Source: Dehalococcoidia bacterium (GTDB taxonomy: Bacteria; Chloroflexota; Dehalococcoidia; GIF9; AB-539-J10). Taken from it: DNA of 36,313 bases. Under the pieces are notes generated by a model. That model had not been told where the DNA came from. It was given only the letters and a program-made list of their open reading frames with translations, and did not search any database. The translations under genes were made by a program, and so were the position numbers. The DNA is taken from the NCBI GenBank assembly GCA_021160725.1, contig JAGHCA010000018.1:1-36313 (forward strand), given 5' to 3'. This document shows positions 816 through 35,292 of this stretch, one piece after another; the stretch's first letter is position 1, and the number at the start of each line of letters is the position of its first letter.

Positions 816-917
816 ATGAAATCCCTGTCCGCCTCCCTCGAAGCCTCCCAGAAAAAAGCCCACCCCATCCAAATTTCCCCTCTTAAGATAAAAGGGGTCA
901 GGGGAGTTATGAGCTAA
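816..917 (+). pseudogene. 33-aa remnant duplicating the N-terminus of the following tail gene (MKSLSASLEASQKKAHPIQISPLKIKGVRGVMS)
   Basis: Aligns with the start of the next ORF (MKTLSATLEAAQKKPHRLP). It ends in TAA, overlapping the next ATG (TAATG), and its 3' half is a dispersed repeat. Confidence 0.55.
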
Positions 918-3043
918 TGAAAACCCTATCTGCCACGCTGGAAGCCGCACAGAAGAAACCCCATCGCCTCCCCTATGTTGAGGCTAAGGTCTATGACTAT
1001 GAGGCCGGTATTAAACGCCTCACCTGGACGAGGCTCTATGAAGGCTCTGAGCCCGATAACCATCATGGTATCGCCTTCGACGGCAACGGCGATATGCACC
1101 GCATCCGGGCCGGTAGCGGTGATGCACTCTATTATCAGAAGCAGGATTGCCCCTTCGGCGTCCCATCTTCTTTCCCATCTGCTTTCCCTATTCCCTTGAA
1201 TGACCCTCCCGCTCTTAATCAGTGGACCCAAATCGCCACCGATTGCGCTGGTCCCTGTGCCATTGCCGCCTGCGGTGCTAAAGTCTATATTTTCTACCGC
1301 AAGACAAATAATACCCTGCGAAAGTACTATTCCCATGATTATGGCCAGTCCTGGAATAATGCCCAGCTCGTAAGCTACGCCGATGTCCTCTCTATGGCTT
1401 CTTGCTGGTGGGGCACCGGCAATGTCGTCGTCTGCTTCGCCCTTAAGTCCAACGAGCTAAACGGAATCGTCCTCGATAGCTCCGACCAGTCAACCAGCCA
1501 GCATATCAAGCAGTTTTACGGCGCCGCCACACATATATTCCTTGACACCTATGGCATCGGTGCTACTTATAATCCCTTCTGGCCCCAGTGCGACATAATC
1601 CTTGCCGCTAAACAGTCCGATACTCCCTATAATCACTACGACCTGTTCAGAACCTGGTTTTCAAGCTCTTATAATTTCGGTGCCCTTGAGAGCTCCCTTA
1701 TGTCCCCCGATGGAGAGGATATCACCTACCAGTACCCCGACTGTCATCTCCCAGCATCAGCCCAGGATTACGAGACCAACCGTATCGTGGCGGTAGAGAA
1801 GTTTGCCGGTACTACCGCCTATACCCGCCCCCTCACCTGCCATAAGGTAAAGGGCACTTACTGGTCCGATACCACCTTTACCGAGCCTAAGCCCTTCCTC
1901 AACATCAGCTCGAATTATGGCTTAAGGCTCCAGAGCACCGCCGACTACTGGTGGTTGGAAAAGCCCAACGGAGTTTGGAGAGCCCCCCGCCCCGCCGCAG
2001 AACCGCTGGACATCTCAAAGCATATCGTTTCCCTGCAACAAAATGTCGCTATCTCCCCTCTTAAGATAAGAGGGGCCGGGGGAGTTATGACCAGCCTCGT
2101 GCTCGAGCTCGATAACTCCAAAGGCCAGTACTCAAACATCGGGGGGTCTGGGGGCGCAGCCCCCAGTGCCCTTCGCTTCCGCAGCGAAATCGTTCTTAAG
2201 CTCGGCTATAAGACCACGGCAGGAGATGAAACCGTCGAAGCCGGTACCTACTGGATTGATTCCTGGGAGTACACCTCGAAGCCCAATATGTCCCGCTTTA
2301 TACTTTATTGCCTCGATGGATGGGGCCTTATGAACCGCTGGACCGCCCGCTACCAGATGAGGTGGAACAAGGACGCAGTTAACCCCAAGAGCGTCTGGCA
2401 AATCCTTTACCAGCTCTTAGCCCGGGTAGGCATTAAGCTCACCAACACCCCGCCCAAGCCCCAGTCCTCCGCCATCAACAACTTCTACCCCGATTTCACC
2501 GTCAACCCAGGCACCCAGGGAGACAGTGCCATACGCAGGCTGCTATCCTTCGTCCCCGACAGGCTCGTATTTCGTGGCCAGGAGGCCTTCACCAAGAACC
2601 CCCTGGCGGATGAGAGCTCATGCTATTCCTACGGCGCTGACCATGCTATCCTCTCAGGTGAATACCGTGAACAAGTGTTCACCAGTCGTGTCCGGGCCAT
2701 TGGCCGAGACGATTCCAACAACCGTATCCTGGAGGAAGCCCAGGACTGGGATTTGCTACAACTCGCTATCGATATCCTGGAGCAGGACTACGACCCCAAC
2801 CTCGACGACGCCACCCGTACCCAGGAGAGAGCCGACGCTATCCTTCGAACTCAACAAATTCAATCAACTCCAGCAACTCTTATTGTCTCCACCAATGTCG
2901 GCCAGGAGCTTTTCGATGTCGTCGGCGTTACCGACCACCGTTGTGGAATCTCGGAGGAGAAGTACCGTGTCCATGCCATTCAGACTGATTACGACCGCCG
3001 CAAAGGCCAGTACGACCAGCGGCTCATTTTAGGTGCGCCATGA
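917..3043 (+). CDS. Phage tail/baseplate-like protein with internal Asp-box (sialidase/BNR-like) segment
   Basis: 708-aa ORF. Contains SHDYGQSW (Asp-box SxDxGx[S/T]W). C-terminal half has tail-hub-like features (LDNSKGQYSN...EIVLKLGYKT...DGWGLM). Confidence 0.55.
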   Translation: MKTLSATLEAAQKKPHRLPYVEAKVYDYEAGIKRLTWTRLYEGSEPDNHHGIAFDGNGDMHRIRAGSGDALYYQKQDCPFGVPSSFPSAFPIPLNDPPALNQWTQIATDCAGPCAIAACGAKVYIFYRKTNNTLRKYYSHDYGQSWNNAQLVSYADVLSMASCWWGTGNVVVCFALKSNELNGIVLDSSDQSTSQHIKQFYGAATHIFLDTYGIGATYNPFWPQCDIILAAKQSDTPYNHYDLFRTWFSSSYNFGALESSLMSPDGEDITYQYPDCHLPASAQDYETNRIVAVEKFAGTTAYTRPLTCHKVKGTYWSDTTFTEPKPFLNISSNYGLRLQSTADYWWLEKPNGVWRAPRPAAEPLDISKHIVSLQQNVAISPLKIRGAGGVMTSLVLELDNSKGQYSNIGGSGGAAPSALRFRSEIVLKLGYKTTAGDETVEAGTYWIDSWEYTSKPNMSRFILYCLDGWGLMNRWTARYQMRWNKDAVNPKSVWQILYQLLARVGIKLTNTPPKPQSSAINNFYPDFTVNPGTQGDSAIRRLLSFVPDRLVFRGQEAFTKNPLADESSCYSYGADHAILSGEYREQVFTSRVRAIGRDDSNNRILEEAQDWDLLQLAIDILEQDYDPNLDDATRTQERADAILRTQQIQSTPATLIVSTNVGQELFDVVGVTDHRCGISEEKYRVHAIQTDYDRRKGQYDQRLILGAP

Positions 3044-3607: not shown

Positions 3608-3786
3608 ACAATTCCTCCTCCCCAGCCATTGCAGGCCGGAGGCGAAGCAACCTCACATCCCAATCTTTTGAGATTGCTTCAGCACTACCGCGCTTCGCAA
3701 TGACAGAGTAGAGACATTATTAGCATTAGCAGTGCATTTTAGCCTATAATATTGAGGGAGTTCAACAAAGTGAGTTTGAGGTTACA

Positions 3787-5454: not shown

Positions 5455-6231
5455 CTACATCAGTAGTCCCAGGTACCAGCTTAGTATATTATTCCCCCAG
5501 AGCAATGTTACCATGGCAGCCGCAGCCAGGAAGGGGCCGAAAGGCAGCGTCTCCTTGAATTTTCTCTTTTTAGCTATCACCAGAGCCACAGCTACTATGC
5601 CACCGAGGACAGCTCCGAGAATTATGGAGAGGAAAACTAGGGGAAAGCCGGTGGCCAGACCAATCAAGCCGACCAATTTAACATCTCCCCACCCCATACC
5701 ACCACGGGAGGCTATGGCAATCAAAAAGAATAAAGCAAAGCCAATGCCCCCACCTAGAGCAGCGCTGGCAATTCCAGGCTTTATCACCTGAGTAAGCCAG
5801 GGCCAGGAATATAGCGCCAGCAGCAACGCCACCACCATGCCGGGATAGACTACCTTGTTCGGGATGATCCCATGCTCCAGGTCAATAACAAAAACAATGG
5901 TGAAGAGACAGGCATAGAAAGCCATAACCCCCAGTGCAGGACTCAATCCGTAATGCCACGCCAAAAGAGCGAACACGACGCCAGTGGCAAGCTCCACCCA
6001 GAATAACCTCCGGGGTACGGCAGCCTTACAATAGCGACAACGACCACAAAGCCTGAGATAGCTAAATACGGGGATGAGATCTTTAGCAGCTAGCTTGTGC
6101 TGGCAAGCTTCACAATGAGAAGGTGGAAATACAATAGACTTGCTCTGAGGCAGACGGTCAATGCATACATTGAGGAAACTGCCTACCACCAAACCCAGAA
6201 GGGCGAATACGACTATAAATAATATTTCCAC
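5455..6231 (-). CDS. Prepilin peptidase (A24 family, type IV leader peptidase)
   Basis: 258 aa; GSFLNVCIDRLPQ, paired CxxC motifs (CEAC...CRYC), GWGDVKLVGLIG motif, multiple TM segments. Confidence 0.93.
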   Translation of the reverse strand: MEILFIVVFALLGLVVGSFLNVCIDRLPQSKSIVFPPSHCEACQHKLAAKDLIPVFSYLRLCGRCRYCKAAVPRRLFWVELATGVVFALLAWHYGLSPALGVMAFYACLFTIVFVIDLEHGIIPNKVVYPGMVVALLLALYSWPWLTQVIKPGIASAALGGGIGFALFFLIAIASRGGMGWGDVKLVGLIGLATGFPLVFLSIILGAVLGGIVAVALVIAKKRKFKETLPFGPFLAAAAMVTLLWGNNILSWYLGLLM

Positions 6232-6331
6232 GAATGCTTATTGTGGACGTGTTATGTGCCTGAAGTCAATAGGCAGCAGGTACTAGTGCCCGGTGCATTT
6301 TACTATCATTGTAGGGCAATTTTATCTTGTC

Positions 6332-6365
6332 ATTGCTTCGTCCCGATTTATCGGGACGAAGCAAT
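6332..6365. repeat. Perfect 16-bp inverted repeat with 2-nt loop (attgcttcgtcccgat-tt-atcgggacgaagcaat)
   Basis: Direct reading; related to the other gaagcaatc/cattgcg-type repeats in the window. Confidence 0.85.
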
Positions 6366-6564
6366 CTCCACAGCTAAATCCCAAATCCTAATTTCTAAGC
6401 TCTAAATGCCGATTTCATCGAGCATCTTCGAAAAGTCGGGACAAACCCAAATTTCAAAATTCAAAGTCCTAAACTGTTTTGGTCATTGATATTTTGTGCT
6501 TGGGGTTTCCTCATATAGGATGATAATATAGTAACGTAGTTGCCCAAAATCGGGGTGAGACAAT

Positions 6565-7308
6565 ATGTCAACAAGGCACCATGTTGGTTGCAGCGGCTGG
6601 CATTACGAGCACTGGCGCGGACTTTTTTACCCCACGGAACTGCCCAAGTCTAAATGGCTAGAGTTTTACGCCCGGCAATTTACTACCGTAGAGCTCAATA
6701 ACAGTTTTTATCAGCTACCTTCGGAAAAAGCGTTCACCGCCTGGCGAGAGTCCACACCCGACAACTTCATTTTTGCTGTTAAGGTGAGCCGATTCATCAC
6801 GCATATAAAAAGGTTAAAGAATTTAGATTCCGCAGTGGAGAACTTTCTATCACGTGCTGTTTTGTTGGGGGAAAAATTGGGGCCTTTTCTATACCAACTG
6901 CCTCCTAACATGAAGCGGAACGACGAGCTGTTACAGAATTTCTTATCTTCGCTGCCACCAAAATATCAGCATGTAATTGAATTTCGACATGAATCCTGGC
7001 TTGATGATACCGTATTCGATATTTTACGAGGACACAATATTGGGTTGTGCGTTTTTGACATGCCTGGCTTTAGCTGCCCTCTCATCGCCACCAGTGATTT
7101 TGCCTATGTCCGTTTTCACGGCAGCGAGGGACTGTATTCCAGTTGCTACTCCGATGAAGAGCTTTCCCAATGGTCACAACAGATTGCTCGGCTAGGGCAA
7201 AGCGTTAAAGCCAGCTACATCTACTTTAACAACGATGCTGAGGCATTTGCGGTCAAGAATGCTATGACATTGGAGAATTGCCTAAAGTCGCTCCGCTCCA
7301 AATCCTAA
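6565..7308 (+). CDS. DUF72 family protein (YecE-like)
   Basis: 247 aa; GCSGWHYEHWRGLFYP, FYARQFTTVELNNSFYQLP, YVRFHG motifs. Confidence 0.93.
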   Translation: MSTRHHVGCSGWHYEHWRGLFYPTELPKSKWLEFYARQFTTVELNNSFYQLPSEKAFTAWRESTPDNFIFAVKVSRFITHIKRLKNLDSAVENFLSRAVLLGEKLGPFLYQLPPNMKRNDELLQNFLSSLPPKYQHVIEFRHESWLDDTVFDILRGHNIGLCVFDMPGFSCPLIATSDFAYVRFHGSEGLYSSCYSDEELSQWSQQIARLGQSVKASYIYFNNDAEAFAVKNAMTLENCLKSLRSKS

Positions 7309-7438
7309 ATCCCAAGCACCACATACTAAACAAATTCCAAATATCAAAATCCAAATGCTTAAATGCCAAAACTACTTCCTTTCATCCTTTGGGTTTCGAT
7401 CTTGTCCCGATTAGATCTGGATTGAGCTTTGTCATTTG

Positions 7439-9247
7439 TCATTGTCTGACGAGTTCTTCTTTAACTTTCTTCGCCAGGGCTAGAGTTATGCCTTCTATCT
7501 GGCTGAGTTCTTCCGAGGAAGCTTCCTTGATAGCTTCAATTGAACCAAACTTTTTTAGCAAAGCCTTCTTTCGCCTTGGCCCGATGCCGGGGATACCATC
7601 CAGGGCAGACATGATACCTTCCTTATGGCGCAATCTCTGGTGGTAACTTATAGCGAAGCGGTGGGCTTCATCCCTGGCTCTTTGTAGTATATGGAGGGCG
7701 GAGGAATCTTTAGCTATATAAGCTGGCCGGTGCTCGCCAGGTACAAATACCTCCTCGTTTTGTTTAGCCAGGCTGACCATGGGGACAGACTCTAGCCCTA
7801 ATTCTTGCCTCACCTCCAGAGCAGCGTTAAGCTGCCCTCTGCCACCATCAATGAGGACAAGGTCAGGAACTGCCCAGGCATCTTCGCCTGCCAAACCACG
7901 TTTAAACCTGCGCCTCAGTATTTCTTGAATCATGGCATAATCATCAGCGCCAGTCACGGTTTTGATGCGGAAACGACGATAATACGGTGGTTTAGGCCGA
8001 CCCTTCTCCAAAACAACCATGCTACCCACAGCCAAAGCACCCTGAATATTGGAGATATCATAACACTCTATCCTCCGAGGCACTTTAGGCAGTCGCAGTT
8101 TGTTTTTTAGCTCTATTAAGGCGGAGCTTATAACCTCTGGTCTCATCTCTTTGGCTCGGGCTAGTTCTAAACCTCTAGCAGCATTTTCGGCTACTGTATC
8201 CACCAGTGTTTTTCTAGTTCCCCGCTGTGGCACACGAAGCTCCACCCTGTTCCCTCTTTGCTGCCCAAGCCACTCAGAAAGTATTGCTGGTTCGTCCACC
8301 TGGTGCTGAAGCAATATCAACGGTGGTACATATGAAGCTGAGGCATAGTATTGTTTCACAAAACTGGTCATTATTTGCCCGGGAGACTCGTCATGGATGC
8401 CCTCCATTATAAAATGGTCTCGACCAATGAGTTTGCTGTTACGAACAAGGAAGAGTTCGACATACGCTTGATTGCCATTCTGCGCCAGAGCAATGATATC
8501 TTGTTCCCCACGTAATGTTATAGCAATCCTCTGCCCTTCTATGACTTCTTCTATGGCCTGTATTTGGTCGCGCAGTAAAGCCGCCTTCTCAAATTGAAGC
8601 TGCTGTGCTGCGGCTTTCATCCTAGCGTTTAACTCACGAAGAACAAGCTCCTGCTTTCCCTGCAAAAACAAGATGACCTGGTTTATTACTTCACGGTATT
8701 CCTGTTTTTCCACCGCTCCAACACACGGACCCAAACAGCGATGAATGTAATAATTGAGACAGGGTCGCTTACTTTTACCATCGATGCGTTTGCTGCAACT
8801 GCGAAAAGGGAAGACTTTCTTTATTAACCTCAAAGTTTTGCGTACCGAGCCAGCACTGGCAAAAGGTCCAAAGTATCTAGCCCCGTCTTTTTGAACCCGG
8901 CGAGTAATATAGACGCCAGGCCAATCTTCGTTAAGGTTTATTTTCAGGTAGGGGAAAGTCTTGCTGTCTTTAAGGCGCACATTATATCGGGGGACATATT
9001 TCTTTACCAAGTTACACTCTAAAATAAGCGCCTCTTGCTCGGAACTGGTAACTACGAACTCGAAATCATGTATTTTCGCCACTAATCGTTGTATCTTTGA
9101 TGTTAGGCTAGACGGGGCGCCAAAATAACTTCTTACACGACTGTTCAAATTGGCAGCCTTGCCAACGTAGATGACCTTGCCCTCCTTGTCCTTAAACAGA
9201 TAAACTCCGGGCTTCGCTGGCAAAGCTTTTAATTGTTGTAACTCCAT
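7439..9247 (-). CDS. uvrC: Excinuclease ABC subunit C
   Basis: 602 aa; GIY-YIG N-terminus (PGVYLFKDKEGKVIYVGKA), RRIECYDISNIQG, C-terminal HhH (LDGIPGIGPRRKKALLKKFGS). Confidence 0.97.
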   Translation of the reverse strand: MELQQLKALPAKPGVYLFKDKEGKVIYVGKAANLNSRVRSYFGAPSSLTSKIQRLVAKIHDFEFVVTSSEQEALILECNLVKKYVPRYNVRLKDSKTFPYLKINLNEDWPGVYITRRVQKDGARYFGPFASAGSVRKTLRLIKKVFPFRSCSKRIDGKSKRPCLNYYIHRCLGPCVGAVEKQEYREVINQVILFLQGKQELVLRELNARMKAAAQQLQFEKAALLRDQIQAIEEVIEGQRIAITLRGEQDIIALAQNGNQAYVELFLVRNSKLIGRDHFIMEGIHDESPGQIMTSFVKQYYASASYVPPLILLQHQVDEPAILSEWLGQQRGNRVELRVPQRGTRKTLVDTVAENAARGLELARAKEMRPEVISSALIELKNKLRLPKVPRRIECYDISNIQGALAVGSMVVLEKGRPKPPYYRRFRIKTVTGADDYAMIQEILRRRFKRGLAGEDAWAVPDLVLIDGGRGQLNAALEVRQELGLESVPMVSLAKQNEEVFVPGEHRPAYIAKDSSALHILQRARDEAHRFAISYHQRLRHKEGIMSALDGIPGIGPRRKKALLKKFGSIEAIKEASSEELSQIEGITLALAKKVKEELVRQ

Positions 9248-12124: not shown

Positions 12125-14512
12125 ATGTCAAAAGCAACAAGGCAATCCCTCAAATTAGCTCATATTAGCGTCCGTGGTATTGTTCAGGGTGTCGGCTTCA
12201 GGCCTTTCGTCTATGCATTGGCTGTCGAACACAATCTTAAGGGGTGGGTTTACAACACTTCAGAGGATGTCAAGATTGAGGTAGAAGGTGAAGCAGAAGC
12301 TCTCAGGCAGTTTGAGCTGAAGCTGCAAAAAAAAGCCCCGCCCCTAGCTCATATCGAGAACATAACTATTGAGTATTACCCACCCTGCGGCTACAAGAAC
12401 TTTGAAATTCGGCATAGCCAGGCACAAAAAGGGAAATATCAGCTTATCTCTCCAGATATCGCTACTTGCCCGGCTTGCCTTAGCGAGTTGCTAAACCCTA
12501 AAGACCGGCGTTACCGCTATCCCTTTACCAACTGTACCAATTGCGGGCCGCGCTTTACCATAATCGAAGCTATGCCCTACGACCGCTCAAAAACAACCAT
12601 GCGTCACTTCCAGATGTGCCCTCAATGCCAGGCAGAATATAATAATCCTTTGGATCGCCGTTTCCATGCCCAGCCTAATGCCTGCCCGAAATGCGGCCCC
12701 CAGGTCGAGTTAGTTGATAACCAGAGCAACCTGATAACCAACTCGAATCCCATAGCCGCTGCCAGTCAGTTCCTCAAAGAAGGGAAAATTGTAGCCATTA
12801 AAGGCTTAGGGGGTTTTCTTTTAGCTTGTGACTCCACGATTGATACCGCAGTTAAAACGCTGCGGCAGAGGAAGAAGCGCCCTTCCAAACCGTTTGCCAT
12901 AATGGTATCAGATATAGGCGAAGCTAAAAGGCATTGCTATATCTCATCAGAGGAGGAAAAATTACTTACTTCACCTCAAAGCCCTATCGTGCTTATGAGG
13001 TGGAGAAAGAATTCCTCTGCATCTCGAGAGGTAGCGCCGAATTTACAGTTCTTGGGGGTTATGCTGCCATATACGCCGCTACACCACATACTGCTTAGAG
13101 ATACAGGCTTGCCTTTGGTAATGACCAGCGGCAATCTCAGTGAAGAGCCTATCGCCAGAGACAATGATGAGTCCTTAAGGAGACTTTCGGGAATTGCAGA
13201 TTACTTTCTAATCCACAATCGGGACATCTACTCCCGCTATGACGACAGCGTTGCCATAGTGGAAAGGGGGACAAGCCAGCTTATAAGGCGGGCGCGCAGC
13301 TACGCCCCCTATCCCATCCACCTCCCATTTAACGCCAGGCAGGTGCTAGGTTGCGGCGCTGAAGAGAAGAATACTTTCTGCCTGACCAAAGATAATTATG
13401 CCTTCGTATCTCAACACATCGGCGATATGGAGAATATGGAAACAGTGCAGCACTTTGACAGCACTATATCCCTGTATAAAAGACTTTTCCATATAGAACC
13501 TGAAATCATTGCTCATGATCTCCACCCCGATTATCTGGCTACCAGATATGCCCAGGAGTTAGGAAAATCCGGTATAAAGCTTATTCCTGTGCAGCACCAC
13601 TACGCCCATATCGTCAGTTGCATGGCTGATAACGGACTTGACTCCCCGGTTATAGGAGTGGCCCTCGATGGCACAGGGTTGGGCGTCGATGGAAATATCT
13701 GGGGAGGAGAATTCCTGGTAGCCGACTACCGCAATTTCAGAAGAGTAGGACATCTGGAATACCTGCCTTTGCCCGGTGGAGACGCGGCGATAAAACGACC
13801 CTACCGCACCGCCATAGCCTATATTCTCACCCTCCTGGGGGAAAATACTCTCAACGCTGTCATTGCGACACTGAACGAAGTGAAGGGAAAGCAATCTCAA
13901 TCAGCTTCTATCGGGCAAGTTAGTGAAGTCGAAATAGAGGTTATCAAGCGCCAGATAGAAAGAAAGATAAACTCACCGCTTACCTCAAGCATGGGACGCC
14001 TTTTTGATGCCATATCAGCCCTGTTAGGAATAAGGGGCGAGATAGATTACGAAGGACAGGCAGCGGTGGAATTGGAAATGGCTGCCTTCTCCTCCGCCAT
14101 TGCGAAGCCTGTCCCGAGCGGAGCAAGGGAACTCGATGAAGCACTCCGGCAGGCACAGAAAAGCTACCCCTACCGCATAGTGGAAGACAAAGGAGTAAGA
14201 ATCGTGCGTCTGCAAGACCTGCTCTCAACCGTAATAGAAGACTTACAACAGGGTACCTCGAAGGGAAGGATATCAGTCAAATTTCACAATACCGTAGCTC
14301 GGATGGTAAGCGAGATGTGTCGCTTGATAGCCGATGAAACCGGCATCAATCATGTAGCCTTAAGTGGCGGCGTATTCCAGAATCGCTTGCTACTGAGAAA
14401 AACGGTCAGCTTACTAGAAAGCAGCGGTTTCCAGGTCTTTACGCACAGGCAAGTACCCTGTAACGACGGCGGTATCTCCCTGGGGCAAGCCGTCATCGCC
14501 AATTTCATGTAA
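12125..14512 (+). CDS. hypF: [NiFe]-hydrogenase maturation carbamoyltransferase HypF
   Basis: 795 aa; acylphosphatase N-terminus (VRGIVQGVGFRPFVY), zinc-finger CxxC clusters, YrdC-like and Kae1-like domains (VQHHYAHIVSCMADNGL, ALSGGVFQNRLLL). Confidence 0.97.
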   Translation: MSKATRQSLKLAHISVRGIVQGVGFRPFVYALAVEHNLKGWVYNTSEDVKIEVEGEAEALRQFELKLQKKAPPLAHIENITIEYYPPCGYKNFEIRHSQAQKGKYQLISPDIATCPACLSELLNPKDRRYRYPFTNCTNCGPRFTIIEAMPYDRSKTTMRHFQMCPQCQAEYNNPLDRRFHAQPNACPKCGPQVELVDNQSNLITNSNPIAAASQFLKEGKIVAIKGLGGFLLACDSTIDTAVKTLRQRKKRPSKPFAIMVSDIGEAKRHCYISSEEEKLLTSPQSPIVLMRWRKNSSASREVAPNLQFLGVMLPYTPLHHILLRDTGLPLVMTSGNLSEEPIARDNDESLRRLSGIADYFLIHNRDIYSRYDDSVAIVERGTSQLIRRARSYAPYPIHLPFNARQVLGCGAEEKNTFCLTKDNYAFVSQHIGDMENMETVQHFDSTISLYKRLFHIEPEIIAHDLHPDYLATRYAQELGKSGIKLIPVQHHYAHIVSCMADNGLDSPVIGVALDGTGLGVDGNIWGGEFLVADYRNFRRVGHLEYLPLPGGDAAIKRPYRTAIAYILTLLGENTLNAVIATLNEVKGKQSQSASIGQVSEVEIEVIKRQIERKINSPLTSSMGRLFDAISALLGIRGEIDYEGQAAVELEMAAFSSAIAKPVPSGARELDEALRQAQKSYPYRIVEDKGVRIVRLQDLLSTVIEDLQQGTSKGRISVKFHNTVARMVSEMCRLIADETGINHVALSGGVFQNRLLLRKTVSLLESSGFQVFTHRQVPCNDGGISLGQAVIANFM
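13859..13899 (+). repeat. Dispersed repeat copy inside hypF (cattgcgacactgaacgaagtgaagggaaagcaatctca-like)
   Basis: Matches the cattgcgag...gaagcaatct pattern of intergenic copies (e.g. 21838-21880, 30943-30980). Confidence 0.65.
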
Positions 14513-14620: not shown

Positions 14621-15613
14621 TTAGCCAGCCTGCCAGCTCAGAAAAGGATAGGTCACTGCACTCACGATATTCCAGATATAGTCGGAGTTGGTCTGGCCAG
14701 AAGCAACCGCTGTTATATTCCACGCCGCGGCTGTGAAGGTTGCGATGTCCATCATCTCTGCGGTAGTCTTGCCTGTCCCACCAGCTGAAGCACTTTGTCC
14801 GCTGGTTTCTGTATCCCAGAAGGAATTGCTCACGGTGCCATCATTCCATCCCACCAGACCGCCAACATCTGAATTGCCAATCACACCGCCTGTGGAATAG
14901 GAATTGCTTACAGTGCCGTCATTACCTCCCACCAGTCCGCCAACATGTGAATCCCCAGTCACGTTGCCTGTGGAATAGGAGTCGCTTACAGTGCCGGCAT
15001 TGCCTCCCACCAATCCGCCAACATGTGAATCCCCAGTCACGTTGCCTGTGGAATAGGAATTGTTTACAGTACCACCAGTACCACCACTACCTCCAACCAG
15101 TCCACCAACATATCCCTCGCCAGTTACGTTGCCACTGGAACTGGAGTTGCTCACAATGCCATAGTGTGTTCCCACCAGATTGCCAACATACCACTGGCCA
15201 GTCACATCAGCATTCACTACGGTGATATTTTGGATGACTCCCCCTTCGCCAACAGCACCGAAAAGCGCCACATCTCTTTCGGCAGGGCGGTTGATAAATA
15301 GGTCGCGCACTTCGTATCCTTGACCATCGAAAGTCCCGGTAAATGGGTTAGCAGGAGTTCCAATTGGCTGCCAGCCCTGTCCCTCATTGGCTATCGGGCT
15401 CACCAGTTCCTCATAACCGGGAGTAGTGGAATCAAGGTCGTTCATCAGGCGGGGATGGCCGCTCAAGTTGCTCCTGATAGCATCCAAATCATACCAAGTC
15501 CGTATTTCTGCCTTTTGAGAAAATGGGCTACAGCCTGCCATCCCGGCAACTAAAGCCATCGTAATCAAAAAGATGCTGCCCCTTGCCACATAGTTTCTTA
15601 ATTTTCCCAACAT
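14621..15613 (-). CDS. Lipoprotein with tandem GLUG-type repeats
   Basis: 330 aa; lipobox VAGMAGC; repeated GDSHVGGLVGGNxGTVSxSYSTGNVT units (26 aa / 78 bp) and SFWDTETSGQSASAGGTGKTTAEM. Confidence 0.88.
   Translation of the reverse strand: MLGKLRNYVARGSIFLITMALVAGMAGCSPFSQKAEIRTWYDLDAIRSNLSGHPRLMNDLDSTTPGYEELVSPIANEGQGWQPIGTPANPFTGTFDGQGYEVRDLFINRPAERDVALFGAVGEGGVIQNITVVNADVTGQWYVGNLVGTHYGIVSNSSSSGNVTGEGYVGGLVGGSGGTGGTVNNSYSTGNVTGDSHVGGLVGGNAGTVSDSYSTGNVTGDSHVGGLVGGNDGTVSNSYSTGGVIGNSDVGGLVGWNDGTVSNSFWDTETSGQSASAGGTGKTTAEMMDIATFTAAAWNITAVASGQTNSDYIWNIVSAVTYPFLSWQAG
14860..15120. repeat. 78-bp tandem repeats encoding GLUG motifs
   Basis: caacatgtgaatccccagtcacgttgcctgtggaatagga occurs at 14941 and again at 15019 (78-bp period), with diverged units on both sides. 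Confidence 0.85.
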
Positions 15614-16284: not shown

Positions 16285-16304
16285 ACTTTAATTACATTCA
16301 CTTT

Positions 16305-16375
16305 TCATTCTGAGCGAAGTGAAGAATCTCAGAGATTCTTCGTCGCCAAATCCCTTTGGACTCCTCAGAATGACA
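16305..16375. repeat. Inverted dispersed repeat (tcattctgagcgaagtgaagaatctc ... ctcctcagaatgaca)
   Basis: Opposing tcattctgag/ctcagaatga ends and internal gaatctcagagattc palindrome; intergenic. Confidence 0.6.
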
Positions 16376-18796: not shown

Positions 18797-18832
18797 TCAT
18801 AACTCCCCCGGCCCCTCTTATCTTAAGAGGGG
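18797..18832. repeat. Intergenic copy (inverted) of the CCCCTCTTAAGATAAGAGGGGCCGGGGGAGTTATGA repeat
   Basis: Reverse complement is essentially identical to the copy at 2053-2089 inside the 708-aa ORF; contains a 9-bp perfect stem (cccctctta/taagagggg). Confidence 0.85.
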
Positions 18833-18993
18833 CATTCTTAGCTCTTAACATAGATATTATCTATCTCCGTGTTCCCCTTAAGACAAGGATTCCCTCCTTC
18901 TCCTCCTTAAGGTAAGGGGAAGAAAAAGGAGGCTATGAATGTTTCTCAACCTCCCCTTCAATTTAAGCCTGCTCCATATCTACCCTAAGTGCC

Positions 18994-20581: not shown

Positions 20582-20634
20582 TTAGTACCATTGACCCACT
20601 CTTTCAACATGAAAGAGTGGGTCAATGGTACTAA
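20582..20634. other. Perfect 25-bp inverted repeat with 3-nt loop
   Basis: ttagtaccattgacccactctttca-aca-tgaaagagtgggtcaatggtactaa; no T-run follows. Confidence 0.9.
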
Positions 20635-30571: not shown

Positions 30572-30942
30572 ATAGACAAGCCCCACTTCTCCTTTCGCTC
30601 AATTGCCCATCGTGCTTCGAGAGAATCAGGACATAGCCCGCGTTCTCTCACGCCAGGCAGAGGATTTGAGCCCCACCGACAATGCCACACCCGACCAGGT
30701 CTTGACAACCCCTAGGATTGTAGCACAATAGTACTATAAGAGGCGGAATATAGGATATAAGGCTGGTGGTCAAGTGTATACGCGAAGGGGTTGTGGTAGT
30801 TCGAGCTACAGTCAGTCCATAATATGTAAATATGTAATTATGTGAACTGCGCTCTTTTCCCTCGCCATAGTAAAAATCAACCCACCCTTCCGAAATTGAG
30901 GTTGTTCAGAAAAGTGCAACGCACTACGCTCCCCATTCACCA

Positions 30943-30980
30943 TTGCGAGCCCCGACTTTTCGGGACAAAGCAATCCCATA
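30943..30980. repeat. Dispersed repeat copy (cattgcgagccccgacttttcgggacaaagcaatccc)
   Basis: Same pattern as 6332-6365 and 35207-35292. Confidence 0.7.
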
Positions 30981-35206: not shown

Positions 35207-35292
35207 CATTGCAAGCCTCGATTTATCGGGACGAGGCGATCCCATTCTCCGCTCTATCATTGCGAGCGGAGCGAATGCGGAGCATGGCAATC
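35207..35292. repeat. Composite dispersed repeat (cattgcaagcctcgatttatcgggacgaggcgatccc / cattgcgagcggagcgaatgcggagcatggcaatct)
   Basis: Two adjacent copies of the cattgcgag..caatc family. Confidence 0.7.

Follow-up and report, generated by a model that had tools for sequence, protein, structure and literature searches.

Dispersed hairpin repeats in frame at four loops of a phage hub-like gene from Dehalococcoidia

In a 36,313-nucleotide stretch of Dehalococcoidia DNA (the window), a gene whose product resembles a phage baseplate hub carries dispersed repeats in frame, and among its homologues unrelated repeat families replace one another in the same four loops. We consider it probable, at roughly 0.7, that this pattern arose by recurrent insertion or replacement by mobile REP-like repeats, filtered for in-frame events which a loop could tolerate. 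The window is contig 47 of draft genome G000 (1.45 Mb in 104 contigs), whose near relatives are Dehalococcoidia/Chloroflexota MAGs. The gene and the copies of its first repeat, family A, are as follows.

917 to 3043, plus strand: hub-like gene with repeat-derived loops, 708 aa (by translation)
2054 to 2090, plus strand: family A hairpin repeat in loop L1, read SPLKIRGAGGVM; exact 37-mer copy
18797 to 18833, minus strand: intergenic family A copy with one mismatch, at the first base
816 to 917, plus strand: 33-aa leader ORF, MKSLSASLEASQKKAHPIQI-SPLKIKGVRGVMS and stop; a partial duplicate of the main gene's N-terminus, ending with a family A copy
876 to 912, plus strand: that variant family A copy in the leader ORF, with three mismatches

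A sequence-only reading had put the 37-mer at 2053-2089. The exact copy is real and lies one base further on, and translation of 917-3043 confirms that it is read in frame as SPLKIRGAGGVM within the 708-aa ORF. The reverse-strand near-copy at 18797, with a differing first base, was recovered as that reading had described it. The variant at 876-912 is also present, but it is not plainly intergenic as had been thought; it is in frame in the leader ORF, whose stop overlaps the start codon of the 708-aa gene as TAATG. From 100 dinucleotide shuffles, 0 copies of the 37-mer are expected. A search of G000 with the 21-bp hairpin core, allowing up to 3 mismatches, found about 16 distinct places against 0 for the reversed-pattern control, which bears out the proposal that a dispersed palindromic repeat has been accepted in the coding frame of a phage-tail-type gene. 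The core folds as a 9-bp stem (-13.3 kcal/mol). It is commoner in G006, G015 and G003 than in G000, with up to about 36 places in relatives, and was not found in G012, G001 or G020. A repeat of family A, J or B also stands directly before the start codon in the window (877-897) and at loci L018, L083, L027, L032 and L047, a fifth recurrent site.

The 708-aa protein gave no match in Pfam or PHROG. The AlphaFold model of the full-length protein was poor (pLDDT 46, 20 alignment rows) and that of the C-terminal half was better (pLDDT 70, 55 rows). With the C-terminal model, Foldseek retrieved the PVC/eCIS hub (E 6e-6), Mu gp44 and VgrG at E values of 6e-6 to 1e-3 and a TM score of about 0.3; the C-terminal half thus resembles, in its predicted fold, a phage baseplate or tail-tip hub. 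This predicted fold is what the protein would have in common with the phage hubs Mu gp44, VgrG and the PVC hub; it is unlike them in the low TM score, in having no Pfam match and in having no relative among 50,697 phage records. The orthologue in G012 has a weak tail match (phrog_1887, E 0.001), and its gene is preceded by genes for a portal, a major capsid protein and an SU10-type adaptor. Together with the hub these are the particle genes that lie at the syntenic locus, as a gene transfer agent might have them; neither a large terminase nor a tape measure was recognised among the proteins scanned. In six genomes the hub-like gene lies together with genes for an MBL hydrolase, an A24 peptidase and uvrC where the contig extends, at 66-87% identity. 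The last two anchor the locus in the window.

5455 to 9247, minus strand: A24 peptidase and uvrC, host genes anchoring the syntenic locus (Pfam and synteny)

This synteny is most simply explained by vertical inheritance of the locus with the loops altered in place. Outside the loops the hub-like gene evolves under purifying selection (dN/dS 0.12-0.24 for near homologues), and the gene is most simply regarded as old, phage-derived and vertically inherited. In G019 it is split by a frameshift (locus L087, 6001-8161) and may be decaying or mis-assembled.

Relatives of the hub protein were drawn from viral contigs (49 relatives), with more from genome collections. Its four loops are at residues ~374-392 (L1), 406-417 (L2), 645-654 (L3) and ~452-457 (L4). 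The C-terminal model (pLDDT 70) shows an inter-strand turn at both L1 and L4, coil at L2 and the end of a helix at L3. The suggestion that the family A repeat sits in a surface loop agrees with the model as far as a low-confidence loop between two strands is concerned; a model of such modest confidence can only point to its exposure. L1 lies between ISL and L.IELDNS, where the segments of the homologues differ and are mostly dispersed repeats: about 85% of 53 homologues hold there, in frame, one of several unrelated families. These are B in two frames (VIAS.. and SLRA..), C, D, E, F, G, I, and J nested after E; family A was found again in L1 of locus L043. Family B is gtcattgcgag...gcaatctc, family C is gtcattctgagcgaagcgaagaatct, family D is gtaggggagggtcttgtaccctccc and family E is cctctccctcgacgggagaggg, and families F, G and I are short-period repeats. 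The two reading frames of family B in L1 indicate that its arrivals were separate. The prediction of a ~12-aa insertion exclusive to this genome is therefore not supported as it stood, because most relatives hold a different repeat at this place; nor is the site the only one, since the protein's other three loops, and host genes, also hold repeats. L2, after KGQY, contains family D, F, H or the native ASPGxGxLASL. L3 is ten codons long in nearly all homologues, which fill it with family B (SLRAERGN), family C (VTLSAAKGL), family I or native sequence. L4 contains B, E, I, J or the native SKPNMSRF. In the window gene, L1 is occupied by A, L2 by H and L3 by a decayed copy of I.

2143 to 2166, plus strand: family H hairpin repeat in loop L2 (GGSGGAAPS), GGGGTCTGGGGGCGCAGCCCCCAG; two related copies in G014
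2849 to 2878, plus strand: decayed family I repeat in loop L3 (TQQIQSTPAT); in homologues these ten codons hold B, C, I or native sequence

In the incomplete G000 assembly, family H is present as a single copy, the L2 copy itself. The six syntenic orthologues have six different L1 contents: A, B, BxB, decayed C, an unassigned sequence and I. No strict family C copy was found in G001, though its own L1 resembles decayed C. Repeat matches in 54 near homologues fall almost wholly in the loops, and no repeats were found in the loops of 9 distant homologues; in distant homologues (31-35% identity) L1 is short and native.

The families in the loops are dispersed through the genomes that carry them. 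Whole-genome searches, each with 0 hits for the reversed control, found 112 copies of family B in G019, 80 in G012, 63 in G003, 6 in G000 and 0 in G020; 25 copies of family C in G003, 19 in G015 and 7 in G000; and 13 copies of family D in G020 and 16 in G012. G020, which is without family B, has family D in L1 and L2 alike. Contigs with family E, F or G in the tail gene have further copies of it beyond that gene (reversed controls 0). So do those with family I, which was left out of the density counts because it is of low complexity and its reversed control was not clean in metagenome contigs. When the G012 gene was scanned against 384 kb of its own genome with 22-mers, irrespective of family, the closest matches were in L2 and L3 and a weaker one in L1. 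In the window, families B and C also occur at the following places.

3672 to 3703, minus strand: family B copy directly downstream of the phage-derived cluster
16304 to 16329, plus strand: family C copy outside called ORFs
30940 to 30975, plus strand: family B copy surrounded by a 69-aa ORF only
35257 to 35292, plus strand: family B copy surrounded by a 94-aa ORF only

We considered a special enrichment of repeats in the tail gene and rejected it; the density of 0.37-0.55 per kb equals that of the neighbouring DNA (0.34-0.43 per kb), and what is special is the confinement to loops. Of 84 family B and C repeats at metagenome loci L003-L051, 83 shared the orientation of the tail gene, those outside genes included; orientation was mixed in a sample of the G012 chromosome. 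Two other repeat structures of the window are a 78-87 bp unit present four times in tandem inside a minus-strand gene (14821-15172), and a perfect 25-bp inverted repeat with a 3-base loop (20582-20634) in a long region without a called gene.

Loop content changes often. On a tree built without L1-L3, the family in L1 changed at least 31 times. On a tree built with none of the four loops, and with families merged, L1 changed at least 28 times compared to 34 for shuffled labels, and L3 at least 17 times compared to 18.3. As these counts are near the shuffled-label values, loop content has little phylogenetic signal. The 4 changes at L4 are an underestimate, the column range having missed family B inserts. 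All loop statistics, the codon identities given below included, are descriptive, as related rows are non-independent and the loops were partly defined after the data had been seen; a binomial figure was set aside on the same grounds. A difference in one loop is already seen between homologues whose flanks are 92-93% nucleotide-identical, and in the two flank-identical pairs the loops are identical as well.

The loops match the repeats at the level of DNA. For residues shared between proteins, the repeat-derived codons of L3 are 94% identical, compared to 53% for synonymous codons in the flanks, and in distant pairs the figures are 93% and 44%. The codons for LRAERGNL in L1 are 100% identical vs. 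67% in the flanks. These figures refute the notion that the loops came about by chance or protein-level convergence with no repeat involved, which we regard as having a negligible probability; certain native loops do resemble repeat-encoded peptides (AERPGSLV vs. AERGNLV), but neither such codon identity nor an exact 37-mer, with 0 expected, is accounted for in that way. The uniformity of the SLRAERGN DNA across divergent homologues, together with one B variant common to L4 of loci L008, L036, L038 and L087, could instead reflect homologous exchange between phages or loci, in which few repeats entered and mostly existing alleles were recombined. The number of families and the two B frames at L1, however, speak for many separate entries, as do nested and tandem forms (loci L032 and L083), partial decay and genome-specific repeat loads, and synteny of the locus extends over six host genomes. 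We therefore judge exchange of this kind quite unlikely as the main source.

Repeats were also found in frame in ordinary host genes. In G012 and G000, in-frame copies lie in hypF, mfd, trpE, purC, rsmA, a DUF1015 gene, an aldehyde dehydrogenase gene and the portal gene. The cleanest host-gene case is hypF.

12125 to 14512, plus strand: hypF, host gene with an in-frame repeat (Pfam)
13860 to 13896, plus strand: family B repeat in hypF, with a C-type centre nested inside it, read in frame as VIATLNEVKGKQS

Within the genus, the hypF orthologues of G010, G004, G011 and G008 are without the repeat, those of G012, G006 and G009 have B only, and those of G000, G019, G005, G015, G001 and G002 have B with the C-type centre. 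The solved HypF structure 3VTH has about 18 residues fewer at the repeat position. The hypF sites, with and without the repeat, are clean, which bears on whether the loops could be artefacts of metagenome assembly at repeats. Every source is a draft MAG or a metagenome contig, and breaks at repeats are frequent in such assemblies; a chimeric join, however, would alter a flank, and about 50 separate contigs keep the frame and the conserved sequence on either side, so we regard an artefact as highly improbable. In two species mfd, the transcription-repair coupling factor gene, has in-frame repeats (loci L145, 2-2236, and L131, 5704-9216). The portal gene at locus L123 (G012 C3, 10574-12094) has consecutive in-frame B repeats read VIASVAKQSQ, IATSPRFIGAPRND (in reverse orientation) and SLRGTPVPKQSQ.

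A domesticated particle, gene-transfer-agent-like or bacteriocin-like, might draw on the host repeats as a peptide pool, with swapping of the hub loops under selection. Loop content outpaces the rest of the gene in change and keeps little phylogenetic memory, four loops are involved, the locus is kept in six genomes under purifying selection, and the DNA of L1 and L3 is identical, all as such adaptive exchange would have it. But hypF, mfd, trpE and purC encode enzymes that do not need diversity and show the same phenomenon, the tail gene is about as dense in repeats as its neighbours, and flank-identical pairs are loop-identical. Adaptive exchange thus seems to us unlikely. We hold equally doubtful the stronger form in which host repeats would constitute a shared library of peptide cassettes, and four-loop swapping in a vertically inherited particle would be favoured or actively catalysed beyond being tolerated. 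A phage tail-type gene with hypervariable segments also recalls a diversity-generating retroelement or a phase-variation cassette. Here, however, unrelated sequences replace whole blocks, base-biased edits from one template were not found, and flank-identical pairs do not vary, so that such a system is very improbable.

We return to recurrent insertion and replacement by mobile repeats. In this reading, a short mobile REP-like hairpin repeat would have landed in frame in the phage-derived hub gene, in a lineage that holds many repeat families whose copies arrive or replace one another in coding DNA, probably through insertion resembling transposition and through recombination of repeats with each other. 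Nearly all coding insertions would be lost to purifying selection, and the survivors would be stop-free and in frame, at turns tolerant of length or sequence. If only a few turns are free, different families would follow one another there, making the loops a changing patchwork of host repeats whose content is probably largely neutral. Insertion alone is not sufficient, because L3 has ten codons whatever its content and L1 has 7-8 residues in a clade of 57% identity; replacement must occur. In three of three proteins the L1 and L3 copies within one gene are identical in 24 of 24 bases, suggesting conversion between copies. Given the codon uniformity across lineages, transfer of cassettes between loops or genomes may play a part, as may selection acting directly on the DNA. 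G000 has no Y1 transposase (RAYT-type, PF01797); G012, G014 and G005 have one copy each.

The hub-like gene offers an unusually rich natural series on the old problem of whether new protein segments come from mobile non-coding repeats: many families have made dozens of changes at four loops of a single gene, and alleles with and without repeats can be compared directly. In this Dehalococcoidia lineage, metabolic and repair genes also receive repeats in frame. Because peptides such as VIAS..., CHSERSE... and SLRAERGNL recur in unrelated proteins, gene calling and the building of protein families are affected.

Enterobacterial RU are small mobile repeats which lie inside genes, add peptides and carry ORFs, according to the abstract of PMC2759123; they differ from the repeats here in their longer units of 103-168 bp. 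A literature search on the repeat sequences themselves found nothing relevant. Same-site succession of families is not known among RU.

The excerpt of PMC3733652 describes intragenic GTAG/CGTC REPs as 20-40 bp hairpins in ORFs of many species, often in DNA repair genes, and notes that recB of X. campestris and of X. oryzae has different REPs at about the same site. Our families D and J likewise begin with GTAG, and mfd carries repeats here. In contrast, A, B, C, E and H have no GTAG/CGTC end in the units seen, and A has neither motif in its 37 bases. The association with RAYT (Y1_Tnp) expected of GTAG/CGTC REPs was not found in G000, and at least 28-31 changes at one loop, with four loops in one protein, are not described for REPs in that excerpt. 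The same excerpt describes the RPEs of Rickettsia as short dispersed palindromic repeats in frame within genes likely encoding functional proteins (PMC3733652). The likeness to these elements that the sequence-only reading had drawn holds for the phenomenon: the repeats here are dispersed (about 16 places), form hairpins and lie in frame in ORFs of known function with repeat-free homologues, as in hypF; the hub gene likewise has distant homologues whose loops are native. They are unlike RPEs in that unrelated families share and replace each other in the loops of one protein, in that the phylum is another, and in that the carriers are a phage-derived hub and host enzymes. By this analogy the Dehalococcoidia repeats resemble RPEs in kind, and we do not claim membership by descent. 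Intragenic REPs and RPEs are already known, and serial replacement by many families is unusual; what is new is the scale (many families, four loops and dozens of changes in one protein), the proof at the DNA level, the phage-derived carrier and the Dehalococcoidia host.
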